From: a bacterium
GTDB taxonomy: Bacteria; UBP15; UBA6099; DSWB01
Direction: 5' to 3'
Length of the DNA: 11,835 nt
Assembly (NCBI GenBank): GCA_020061125.1
Contig: JAGUYV010000298.1
Location: forward strand, 1-11,835
The notes under the pieces were generated by a model. The model did no database searches. It had not been told where the DNA came from and worked only from the letters and a program-made list of their open reading frames with translations. Positions 3,946 to 11,835 of this stretch are shown here, in pieces. The position numbers and the translations under genes are program-made. Numbering within the stretch: position 1 is the first letter of the stretch; each line of letters starts with the position of its first letter.

Positions 3946-3974
3946 TTTACAATGTATTCCATAGTGCGTAAAAT
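3946..3974 (+). promoter_or_regulatory. Sigma-70-type promoter of the flagellin gene
   Basis: TTTACA (3946-3951) and TAAAAT (3969-3974) are 17 bp apart, with hexamers identical to those of the lipoprotein promoter at 8307-8335. Transcription would begin near 3981, leaving a leader of about 130 nt. An overlapping TTGACT at 3941-3946 would give a 22-bp spacer and is less likely to be the -35. I see no convincing sigma-28 or sigma-54 promoter. Confidence 0.6.
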
Positions 3975-4060: not shown

Positions 4061-4108
4061 CTTGAGTATGCATGGAAGCATACGCAAAATCAGTCAAACT
4101 CAAGGAGG
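4061..4108 (+). promoter_or_regulatory. Structured flagellin leader with CsrA-like sites
   Basis: GTATGC (4066-4071) and GCATAC (4078-4083) form a perfect 6-bp stem whose loop is the hexamer ATGGAA, fitting ANGGAN closed by a C-G pair, the preferred CsrA/RsmE target. A second ANGGA (AAGGA 4102-4106) lies within the Shine-Dalgarno AAGGAGG. In addition CTTGAGT (4061-4067) is complementary to ACTCAAG (4098-4104), which would bring the two sites together and partly bury the ribosome site. The leader before it contains an unstructured A/C-only run (about 4025-4048). No csrA gene is in the window. Confidence 0.5.
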
Positions 4109-4113
4109 ACACC

Positions 4114-4983
4114 ATGGCAATCGTCAACACTAACTTCAACTCAAATGTTTTGGCGAGCCTGAACAACCTTCGGCTCACCGACTACAACATCCAAGTCTCC
4201 ATCATGAAGTTGTCCAAGGGGCTGCGCATTGTGCGCGCGTCCGACGACCCGTCCGGCATGGCCATCGCCAACCGGTTCGAGTCGCAGATACGCGGGCTGC
4301 GGCAGGCCACCATCAATGCCGAGCAGGCAAGCTCCATGCTGCAGACCGCGTACAGCGTTCTGGACGAGACCGACGAAATTCTGCTGCGCATGCGCGACCT
4401 GGCGCTCAAGGTCATGAACCAGGCCACGCTCACCACCAGCGATGTGGCCACTCTGGACAGCGAGTTCGACAGCCTGCGCGACGAAATCACGCGCAAGGGT
4501 GAGGCGGCCACATTCAATTCCAAAAACATCCTGGACGGCACATTCGCTTCGCCGGGCCAGAAAGCCCAGATCGGCGCGGCTGCGGGCGACCAGTTGAGCA
4601 TCATCATCGAATCCATGGTCGCTGCAACGATCGCCAACGCCACCAATGCGCTGGCGAATGTGCAGCTCACCAGCGACGCCGTGAACAGCGCCGCAGGGCA
4701 TGCAGCCTCGGCCTTGAGCGTCCTGGACACTTCCCTGGATTACCTGGGCACCGTGCAGACCTCGCTGGGCGTGCAGGAGTACCGGCTCAATTCCATCATC
4801 AACGATCTCACGGCCCAGGAAATCAACACCGCCGCCGCCAAATCCAACATCACGGATGTGGATATGGCCGCGGAGATTTCCTACTTCGCCAGGCTTCAGA
4901 TTTTAAGCCAGGCGGGCACGGCCATGCTGGCCCAGGCCAACAGTCTCCAGGAGCGGATCGTCGGCATTCTGGAAGATTTGTAA
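4114..4983 (+). CDS. Flagellin (short, D0/D1 only)
   Basis: Filament subunit exported by the flagellar type III apparatus. The 289 residues correspond to the N- and C-terminal helical D0/D1 domains with almost no variable middle. The N-terminal part shows NTNFNSNVLASLN, KLSKGLRI, ASDDPSGMAIANRFESQIRGLRQA and NAEQASSMLQTA; FNSKNILDG closes the N-terminal D1 hairpin. The C-terminal part shows AAKSNITDVDMAAEI and LQILSQAGTAMLAQAN. The last residues, LQERIVGILEDL, depart from the usual ending (an APQxVLxLL-type sequence). The start is set by AGGAGG at 4103-4108, 5 bases before ATG 4114; an upstream ATG at 4072 lies inside the leader hairpin loop and lacks a ribosome site. It is monocistronic, flanked by its own promoter and terminator. 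FliW and CsrA, which often accompany regulated flagellins, are not in view. Confidence 0.93.
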   Translation: MAIVNTNFNSNVLASLNNLRLTDYNIQVSIMKLSKGLRIVRASDDPSGMAIANRFESQIRGLRQATINAEQASSMLQTAYSVLDETDEILLRMRDLALKVMNQATLTTSDVATLDSEFDSLRDEITRKGEAATFNSKNILDGTFASPGQKAQIGAAAGDQLSIIIESMVAATIANATNALANVQLTSDAVNSAAGHAASALSVLDTSLDYLGTVQTSLGVQEYRLNSIINDLTAQEINTAAAKSNITDVDMAAEISYFARLQILSQAGTAMLAQANSLQERIVGILEDL

Positions 4984-5020: not shown

Positions 5021-5156
5021 TTCCTGTCAAGAGACCATCGCCTCACGGTTCGGCAAGTTTGCATGCACAGGGTTGTGCTTTGTCACGATCCATATCAACT
5101 CTCGATTTGATTGTTAATTAGCGAAAATTAATCTTTTCACAATGACACAACACCAG

Positions 5157-5190
5157 AAGCCCCGCATCTCACAGCGGGGCTTTATTTATT
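5157..5190 (+). terminator. Rho-independent terminator of the flagellin transcript
   Basis: AAGCCCCGC (5157-5165) pairs perfectly with GCGGGGCTT (5174-5182) around an 8-nt loop, and TTTATTTATT follows. This is the clearest terminator in the window. It lies 174 bases after the flagellin stop, so the mRNA has an unusually long 3' tail. Confidence 0.88.
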
Positions 5191-9513: not shown

Positions 9514-11412
9514 TTGAAGAGCGCATCCCGCATGATTCTGATGGGCCTGGTGGCCGCGGGACTTCTGTGTTCGGTGTTCATTTCCGCGCGCCGCATCCAG
9601 AACGAGCGCGTGCACCGGCGCATTGACATCGTCGTGGACTATGGCGATTTGCGCCGGATTACGCCCGTGACTGGCGAAGGCATGGTGCGCGCCCTGCGCC
9701 GCATGTCTGAATCCGGCGCCACGGCCATCGCCATTTACGAAGACAATTTCATTGATGCGCTCGACAACCAGTGGATCGCTCTTAACCGCATGCCCGGCGC
9801 CAGCGTGCGTTCGGAGCAGTACCGCGAGGTGCGCACCGGGCAGATTACCGCGCTCTCGGTTCTGGACCGCGCGCCCCGGATCATGGGCATGTTCAGGCGC
9901 TATTTCGGAGAGGATGCCTGTCCGGAATCCAACAAATGCTTCGTGCCGTTCAAGCGCAAGGAACTTGAGGAATTTTCGCTGGGCTTCAGTCCCCCGCAAA
10001 CGGATCTGGCCATTTCCCTGCGCCCGCGTCATGTGCCTTTCGACACCCCTGAATCCATCCGCGCAAAGATGCAGGCATGGGACAGGCTGGAGCGCAAAGG
10101 GCCGGTGATTTTTGACGGGATTGCGGTGACGGGATATCCCAACGGGATGAAGCCGCTGCTGGAGGAAATCGGCAAGAGGCCCGGCATGCGGGTCGGATAT
10201 CTGGAGCTTGCGGGGCAGCAGGGCATGACGGCTATCGCCGCAAAATATCCGGAACAGATTGTGCAGACGCACGGGATCACGGATCTGGAGATGCTCAAGG
10301 TGGGACGCGAAACCGCGGTGCGGCGCATGGTGCGCGCGGTGCGCGAGCGGCGCGTGCAAGTCCTTTATCTGCGACTGTTTGTGCGCGAGAGCGGGTTGCC
10401 GCCGCAGGAAGCGCTGGATTTCAATGCGGATTATGTAAAGTCGGTTGCTGACGGAGTGCGCGCCGCCGGATACGAGGTTGGATCGGCCGCGCCGGTGAAA
10501 AATATTGATGTGCCTTGGGTAATCCGCGCCGGGGCCGTGAGCGGAGCGTTCGCGCTTGTGTTTCTTCTGGCGGGCGCGGTGTTCCGTGCGCCGTGGCCCC
10601 TGGCCGCTCTGGCGTGCCTTCTGGTGTTTCCGGGTTACGCAATCGCCGCGTCCCAGGGCATGGGAATGCTCGTGCTCAAGGCGTCCGCGCTTGTTGTGGG
10701 GTGTCTGGCGCCGGGGCTTGCCGTGAGCGCCCTGTTCCTGTATCCGCAAAAGCACTACGACGGTCCCGGCCGCACCATGCCGCTCACGGAAAATGTCCGG
10801 GCGTTTCTTGCGGTGAGCCTGCTTACGGCCGCGGCCGGATTCATGGCCGGGTCCATCCTTTCCCACAGAGATCTGTTTGCGCGCATCGAGACATTCGCAG
10901 GGGTCAAGCTGGCCCTGGTTTTCCCCATGCTGGTTGTGATTTACGCCTGGCTGCGGGTATGCCGGTTCAGCCTGCGGGAGTTCCTTGAGTCCCCGCTTCG
11001 GTATGTGGAAGCCCTGGCCGGTGTGGCGATTCTCGGCGCCGCGGCCATATACCTGATGCGCAGCGGCAACGACGCTGCACTGGCGCCTATGGGCGGACAG
11101 GAGCGCAATGTGCGCGAGTGGCTCGAAGCCGTGTTTGTGGCCCGGCCGCGCACCAAGGAATTTCTGTTCGGCCATCCGGCCATGATATTGCTGGGCCTGA
11201 TACCGTTCCACCGCAGAAACTACCTGTTCCTGGTGGTTCTTCTCGCGGGCGTGGTGGGGCAGGCGAGCTTGTTCAATACCTTCTGCCACATTCATACGCC
11301 GCTGCCGCTGACGCTGGCGCGTGTGGCGCTGGGCGTGATACTTGGCACGGCCGTGGGCGCGGCGCTGCGAACCGCATGGATCGCGGCGCTGCGGGTGTGG
11401 AGAAGAGAGTGA
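9514..11412 (+). CDS. DUF5693 family polytopic membrane protein
   Basis: A 632-residue protein of the DUF5693 family, whose biochemical role is unknown but whose gene commonly precedes csaB, as here. It has one N-terminal membrane helix (about 7-24), then a large soluble region to about residue 330 with VDYGDLRRITPVTGEG, SGATAIAIYEDN, YLRLFV and FNADYVKSVADGVRAAGYEVG, and then about eight helices (about 336-357, 360-380, 386-410, 428-450, 464-482, 496-514, 570-590 and 603-626). The soluble part probably lies outside the cytoplasmic membrane. The TTG start is supported by AAGGGGAGG (9498-9506) 7 bases upstream and by the membrane helix just after it; the next ATG would cut into that helix. Context suggests a role in export or assembly of the polysaccharide modified by CsaB, which is inference. 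The stop TGA overlaps the ATG of the small frame at 11412. Confidence 0.85.
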   Translation: MKSASRMILMGLVAAGLLCSVFISARRIQNERVHRRIDIVVDYGDLRRITPVTGEGMVRALRRMSESGATAIAIYEDNFIDALDNQWIALNRMPGASVRSEQYREVRTGQITALSVLDRAPRIMGMFRRYFGEDACPESNKCFVPFKRKELEEFSLGFSPPQTDLAISLRPRHVPFDTPESIRAKMQAWDRLERKGPVIFDGIAVTGYPNGMKPLLEEIGKRPGMRVGYLELAGQQGMTAIAAKYPEQIVQTHGITDLEMLKVGRETAVRRMVRAVRERRVQVLYLRLFVRESGLPPQEALDFNADYVKSVADGVRAAGYEVGSAAPVKNIDVPWVIRAGAVSGAFALVFLLAGAVFRAPWPLAALACLLVFPGYAIAASQGMGMLVLKASALVVGCLAPGLAVSALFLYPQKHYDGPGRTMPLTENVRAFLAVSLLTAAAGFMAGSILSHRDLFARIETFAGVKLALVFPMLVVIYAWLRVCRFSLREFLESPLRYVEALAGVAILGAAAIYLMRSGNDAALAPMGGQERNVREWLEAVFVARPRTKEFLFGHPAMILLGLIPFHRRNYLFLVVLLAGVVGQASLFNTFCHIHTPLPLTLARVALGVILGTAVGAALRTAWIAALRVWRRE

Positions 11413-11486
11413 TGCACAACGAAAGAGAATTCCGCGGGCGCAAGCGGCAACGCGCCCCGCGGATTTTTATTGGTGACCTTTCGTGA
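11412..11486 (+). CDS. Small arginine-rich coupled frame (candidate leader peptide)
   Basis: A 24-codon frame begins at ATG 11412, sharing one base with the DUF5693 stop (TGATG), and ends with TGA 11484-11486, overlapping the csaB GTG (GTGA). A strong Shine-Dalgarno-like GGAGAAGAG (11399-11407) lies 4 bases before its ATG (9 from the GGAG core). The product has six Arg and one Lys, including RGRKRQR. The terminator-like hairpin at 11431-11471 is entirely inside it, so a translating ribosome would prevent hairpin formation. I recognise no homologue; it could be a leader peptide, a translational bridge or chance. Confidence 0.4.
   Translation: MHNEREFRGRKRQRAPRIFIGDLS
11431..11471 (+). terminator. 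Intrinsic terminator or attenuator directly before csaB
   Basis: TCCGCGGGCGC (11431-11441) pairs with GCGCCCCGCGGA (11452-11463) through 11 bp with one bulged C, around a 10-nt loop, followed by TTTTTATT (11464-11471). The csaB ribosome site GGTGA begins at the next base. As a terminator it would stop readthrough from the DUF5693 gene just before csaB, so conditional readthrough is plausible. Confidence 0.65.
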
Positions 11487-11835
11487 ATCTTTTCGTTTTC
11501 GGATATTTCGGATGCGGGAACCTCGGAGACGAGGCCATTTTGAGTTCTTTCATTCAGTGGGCCGGAGACCGGCTACAGGGCGTGGAGATCACGGCCCAGA
11601 GTTCGGACCCCGCGCAAACCAGAAAGAACCATGGCATCGGCGCGGTCCCGAAATTCAATGCATGGGCGTTGTGGCGTGCACTGTCGCGCTGCGATGCCGT
11701 GGTTGCGCCGGGCGGAGGCCTGTTGCAGGACACCACCAGCATGCGCAGCGTGATTTACTACGCGGGCCTGATCCGGTTGGCGCAGGCCATGGGCAAGCCC
11801 GTGTTTCTTCTGTCGCAGGGCATCGGTCCGCTGCG
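11483..11835 (+). CDS. csaB: Polysaccharide pyruvyl transferase CsaB, N-terminal part (runs off the window)
   Basis: The CsaB family transfers pyruvate from phosphoenolpyruvate as a ketal onto secondary cell-wall polysaccharide; pyruvylated polymer is the ligand for SLH-domain surface proteins. The 117 residues visible contain the family N-terminus FGYFGCGNLGDEAIL, SSDPAQTRKNHGIGAVPK, APGGGLLQDTTS, YYAGLIRLAQAMGKPVF and SQGIGPL. No frameshift is seen. GTG 11483 is the start: an in-frame TGA lies at 11474-11476, and GGTGA (11472-11476) is 6 bases upstream. The frame is open at the right edge and roughly two thirds of the gene is missing. Genes for SLH proteins or polysaccharide synthesis are not in view. 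The function of CsaB in a diderm would be surface-polymer anchoring, inferred from family. Confidence 0.9.
   Translation, partial: MNLFVFGYFGCGNLGDEAILSSFIQWAGDRLQGVEITAQSSDPAQTRKNHGIGAVPKFNAWALWRALSRCDAVVAPGGGLLQDTTSMRSVIYYAGLIRLAQAMGKPVFLLSQGIGPL

Follow-up and report, generated by a model that had tools for sequence, protein, structure and literature searches.

Whether flagellin synthesis in an unplaced bacterial lineage is controlled by the RNA-binding protein CsrA is the question raised by the 5′ leader of a flagellin gene in the window, i.e., the whole stretch of 11,835 nucleotides that was analysed, which represents one contig of a 4.1 Mb, 79% complete assembly. An earlier note on this DNA had read the leader as a CsrA-type control element, and this overall reading is supported by the presence of csrA and fliW, by covarying counterparts in relatives and by a distribution linked to csrA. 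As judged from sequence comparison, the leader is very probably a CsrA operator of the hag/flaA type (CsrA-FliW switch) that would repress flagellin translation; the comparison thus gives strong support to a switch of an established kind that occurs in a new lineage. The traits of this type that were found comprise an ANGGA in a hairpin loop 5′ of the Shine-Dalgarno (SD) sequence, an ANGGA within the SD of a flagellin gene, a csrA with its RNA-binding core, a fliW near csrA, and compensatory changes in the stems.

The leader carries two sites of CsrA type, here called BS1 and BS2 (Table 1). The perfect hairpin with the hexaloop ATGGAA and a C-G closing pair, described in the earlier note, is exactly present, its stem being formed by GTATGC (4066-4071) and GCATAC (4078-4083), and so is the second ANGGA at the SD, with 30 nt between the A of the loop and the A of the SD. 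The SD ends 5 nt 5′ of the flagellin ATG at 4114. The ATG within the loop, at 4072, is in frame and would open a 303-aa ORF, and was rejected as the flagellin start because an SD precedes 4114 and homologues begin with MAIVNTN or MSVVNTN; the N-terminus of the window flagellin, MAIVNTNF, agrees with relatives. Both strands of the window together hold 109 ANGGAN sites, among which only the one at 4066-4083 is enclosed by a Watson-Crick stem of at least 4 bp, and about 0.03 ANGGAN sites with a stem of at least 6 bp would be expected per window from base composition. As a whole, the leader shows no unusual stability (z -0.83), and its predicted folds leave the SD partly paired. No Rfam family matched the window leader, either at the gathering score or up to E 5; this also sets it apart from TwoAYGGAY (RF01731), whose covariance model found no match there at either level. 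Likewise, no family was matched in eight related loci at the gathering score.

Table 1. Features of the flagellin locus in the window.
Feature	Coordinates	Strand	Description
Sigma-70-like promoter TTTACA-17-TAAAAT	3946-3974	+	10/12 consensus positions; consensus match alone
7-bp flanking complementarity	4061-4104 (4061-4067 with 4098-4104)	+	exists, not conserved
BS1 hairpin, first CsrA-type site	4066-4083	+	6-bp stem and hexaloop ATGGAA, perfect pairing; covarying counterparts in relatives
Hexaloop ANGGAN = ATGGAA	4072-4077	+	no variation at A1, G3, G4 and A5 among 21 distinct hairpins from the order
BS2, second CsrA-type site AAGGA	4102-4106	+	within Shine-Dalgarno AAGGAGG (4102-4108)
Flagellin gene, 289 aa	4114-4983	+	Pfam Flagellin_N 6.5e-28, Flagellin_C 1.6e-18
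Terminator-like hairpin 3′ of the flagellin gene	5156-5183	+	consensus alone

In regard to transcription, the putative sigma-70-type promoter with a long leader that the earlier note had named amounts to a consensus match; a leader of about 130 nt would be predicted from its end at 3974. No match to the sigma-28 consensus was found within the window, and sigma-28-like -10 boxes are present in 9 of 47 short-flagellin leaders of the order. Further downstream, the window encodes a DUF5693 protein (9514-11412), directly followed by an ORF (11483-11835) which by inspection presumably resembles polysaccharide pyruvyl transferase of the CsaB type.

A genome-wide search of the same assembly revealed one csrA (E 4.4e-22) and one fliW (E 1.2e-30), adjoining each other, which settles in the affirmative the search for both genes that the earlier note had suggested. 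The genes of this locus follow in the order flgN-flgK-flgL-fliW-csrA-flagellin, where flgN, flgK and flgL were named by position and sequence, without a family search. The CsrA protein has 80 aa; its core aligns to the CsrA of entry 1t3o (2.2e-16), which we take to be that of B. subtilis, and to other solved CsrA/Rsm proteins, the HRKE region is kept, and residues past the core form a C-terminal extension, the part that may receive FliW. For the FliW protein, the best match is FliW in entry 5dmb, where a CsrA chain is present as well. csrA and the window flagellin are located on different contigs. The leader of fliW itself (L035:5250-5310) holds GGCGGC-AATGGATGAA-GCCGCC together with an SD of the form ATGGAGG, which hints at control by CsrA of its own antagonist. 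This SD recurs before fliW in four relatives and the upstream GGA loop does not, and because of the loss of that loop CsrA control of fliW is not claimed.

The same genome (G000) gave 33 flagellin-like matches, some of which are pieces of one gene, and thus holds a large set of paralogues. In contrast to most short flagellins, long flagellin-like ORFs of this genome, located in L038-L041, L043, L044, L046 and L047, have no CsrA-type hairpin; their start codons being uncertain, they measure about 360-580 aa when counted from the start that was chosen.

The conservation of the element was followed through flagellin leaders taken from this genome and from six other genomes of the same order. An ANGGA within the SD was present in 37 of 38 short-flagellin leaders of the related genomes and in 7 of the 8 found in the own genome, while an unbroken stem of at least 4 bp around an upstream ANGGAN hexaloop was found in 28 of the 38 short-flagellin leaders of the order, compared to dinucleotide shuffles with 0.46 on average and 3 at most. 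Of the 8 short-flagellin leaders in the own genome, 3 have such a strict stem, and several leaders without it, both there and in relatives, form this hairpin apart from a single mismatch or bulge (L033, L049). The median distance between BS1 and BS2 is 24 nt within the order and 28.5 nt in other lineages. For all six pairs, changes on both sides were found among 21 distinct hairpins, with 48 of 126 cells doubly changed vs. a shuffle mean of 12.7; these counts come from ungapped hairpins, leaving out an alignment (A1) in which a few rows had gaps inside the hairpins. As the 21 hairpins had been chosen for at least 4 pairs, the fairer number is that of an unselected test, in which the nearest ANGGAN 20-56 nt 5′ of each start was taken blind to pairing, yielding 29 distinct leader sites. 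There, the first five stem positions were paired in 87.6% of cases, compared to 40.3% at 1445 ANGGAN sites of the same loci; pairs one to four were all intact at 21/29 leader sites vs. 6% at other ANGGAN sites. The invariance of A1, G3, G4 and A5 in the loop is given by construction, since the sites were picked by the ANGGAN pattern, and the real test lies in the stem statistics. The comparison of leaders among relatives, proposed in the earlier note, therefore came out with hexaloop and GGA kept and with stem sequences that change with compensation.

In this order, the flagellin leader linked to csrA shows an additional hairpin with next to no variation, GTTTCTGG-TGGCT-CCAGAAAC, located 3′ of the GGA hairpin and 5′ of the SD (L035:6258-6273; C51:12257-12272 in the own genome), which is also found in leaders in L051, L057, L060, L062, L065 and L072. 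Each of 7 genomes of the order has a single copy of the sequence TTTCTGGTGGCTCCAG, and the other 283 genomes together have only one, within a coding frame. The CUCC of this additional hairpin could pair with the SD.

Furthermore, a covariance model (R1) was built from 13 leaders of relatives, the window being left out, and run on the whole sequence of seven genomes, where 28 matches reached E <=1. Of these, 25 lie directly 5′ of flagellin genes and 1 at a contig edge, while the remaining 2 are weak (E 0.37 and 0.89), lie elsewhere and agree in number with what chance predicts; 13 of the flagellin matches, plus near-copies, belonged to the training set. The window leader was not recovered with filters and scored weakly without them (7.5 bits, E 2.3), probably because its stem is richer in AU and its spacer is longer, so that its membership in the group rests on the direct features described above and not on the model.

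The variation in stem sequence bears on the alternative of a generic 5′ stem-loop, acting as an mRNA stabiliser or a processing mark, with the purines of the loop and of the SD coinciding by chance. Short hairpins are indeed often held by 5′ leaders, and the SD is GGA-rich by nature; however, the stems differ in sequence while pairing around ANGGA persists. The alternative was further confronted with distant genomes. A total of 213 genomes from the list of relatives, spread over the domain with mostly one or two from each family, were screened for Flagellin_N and CsrA, and flagellin leaders were read in 54 of them, 44 with csrA and 10 without. The hairpin, counted if its constrained fold was <= -3.5 kcal/mol and ended at least 14 nt 5′ of the start, was found in 38/61 leaders from genomes with csrA and in 0/18 from genomes without it; for ANGGA in the SD, the corresponding counts were 55/61 and 4/18. 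Hairpin and SD-ANGGA occurred together in one leader in 28/44 genomes with csrA vs. 0/10 without (Fisher p 2.2e-4), start codons being set by rule, few leaders being read per genome, and the genomes not being fully independent, as those lacking csrA include two pairs that each share a family. The remaining 16 of the 44 genomes with csrA lacked the combination in the leader or leaders sampled. FliW is encoded in 43/44 genomes with csrA and in 0/10 without. The element thus depends on the presence of csrA, and with its absence from all 18 leaders of genomes without csrA and the scarcity of SD-ANGGA there, we consider a generic stem-loop very unlikely.

Another alternative concerns the sequences flanking the hairpin. 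The earlier note had proposed that complementarity between them brings the two GGA sites together, and the complementarity as such is exact, CTTGAGT (4061-4067) being the reverse complement of ACTCAAG (4098-4104). It could be argued that the leader is a thermosensor or attenuator in which this pairing hides the SD and the hairpin merely shapes the leader, and when 4061-4108 is folded alone, the 7-bp pairing indeed reaches P 0.72. On the other hand, it is weak or gone in longer folds (P 0.03-0.32, with P 0.71-0.97 for the hexaloop hairpin, with which it competes), and in the 30 leaders tested the complementarity between flank and SD is what chance would give (mean 4.27 bp; shuffled 4.15). Moreover, it would take up 4102-4104 and thus compete with the second CsrA site. 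A thermosensor or attenuator is therefore given even less credence than a generic stem-loop. As the complementarity is not conserved, it is probably incidental, and it was rejected as a component of the mechanism, since it would also compete with the second site. Finally, the loop could be the target of a base-pairing small RNA, for which nothing direct speaks, though flagellar genes of C. jejuni are under sRNA control (PMC11187230), and which is scarcely credible in view of stems of many unrelated sequences around A.GGA and of the element's dependence on csrA.

Returning to the CsrA operator, one CsrA dimer would bind the ANGGAN hexaloop and bridge to the ANGGA of the SD, where it would block binding of the 30S subunit and repress flagellin translation. 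Export of flagellin would free FliW, which would then capture CsrA and lift the repression; because of this release on export, flagellin synthesis is proposed to be matched to filament assembly. We infer CsrA binding and repression at the window leader by analogy, as we do dimer bridging, ribosome occlusion and partner switching by FliW, with B. subtilis, C. jejuni and C. difficile as the models.

In B. subtilis, hag carries a pair of CsrA sites separated by about 25 nt, one of them at the SD, and FliW is the antagonist of CsrA (PMC7652899, PMC8523840); the sites were reported at A51-A55 and C75-G82 (PMC8523840). The window leader is alike in its two sites of CsrA type, with the second at the SD, and in the presence of fliW, and differs in that its contig is separate from csrA, in its many flagellin paralogues, and in being known from sequence alone. 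In C. jejuni, one ANGGA of the flaA leader lies in a stem-loop and another at the ribosome-binding site, with compensatory changes in relatives and FliW antagonising CsrA (PMC4894983). There, however, the GGA of the SD is part of another defined stem-loop, and the 5′UTR is 45 nt long, while the window has no conserved hairpin at the SD and probably a longer leader. For C. difficile fliC, BS1 TGACAAGGATGT and BS2 CTAAGGAGGG were predicted (PMC8523840); this pattern is also present in Clostridium loci (L088-L089) and in distant genomes, although fliC belongs to another phylum and another flagellin than the window. In Leptospira and Borrelia, CsrA binds flaB leaders at a GGA near the SD, and the predicted hexaloop sites of Leptospira lie 6-7 nt 5′ of the start codon; unlike in the window, a second, upstream hairpin site is not described in the available part of that source (PMC8668096).

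Experimental demonstrations of CsrA control of flagellin come from a few Firmicutes, Campylobacterota and spirochaetes. The earlier note's suggestion of a switch extending past the known cases is supported by the survey of distant genomes: the sequences support conservation of the element across the unplaced order and many distant bacteria with csrA, and its absence where csrA is absent, beyond the cases demonstrated experimentally in the papers searched. No paper stating such breadth of the CsrA-flagellin operator was found in the open-access literature, subscription papers lying outside the search. We find it reasonably likely that the two-site operator (an ANGGAN hexaloop, 20-30 nt, and an ANGGA at the SD) is the default flagellin leader in bacteria of many lineages with csrA and fliW and is missing without csrA, as a recurrent element that has no Rfam match in the scanned loci and is kept separately for each paralogue. 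If so, an operator at each paralogue would let a single CsrA-FliW pair gate the whole flagellin set in genomes with multiple flagellins. The same architecture in the unplaced order and in dozens of families, tied to csrA, suggests that flagellin control is a widespread and possibly ancestral task of CsrA with FliW, and makes this question testable. The architecture also offers a simple signature at the sequence level by which flagellin leaders of uncultured bacteria can be annotated.

Unusual copies of both regulators were observed among the genomes searched. Two adjacent CsrA-domain matches, with frames of equal length (143 and 176 aa, respectively), as if fused, were found at G022:C6:34182-34526 and G158:C12:127306-127644, and two adjacent FliW-domain matches at G054:C25:16934-17782 both lie in a 332-aa frame, likewise as if fused. 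One genome of 6.4 Mb holds nine CsrA matches (G131:C1).
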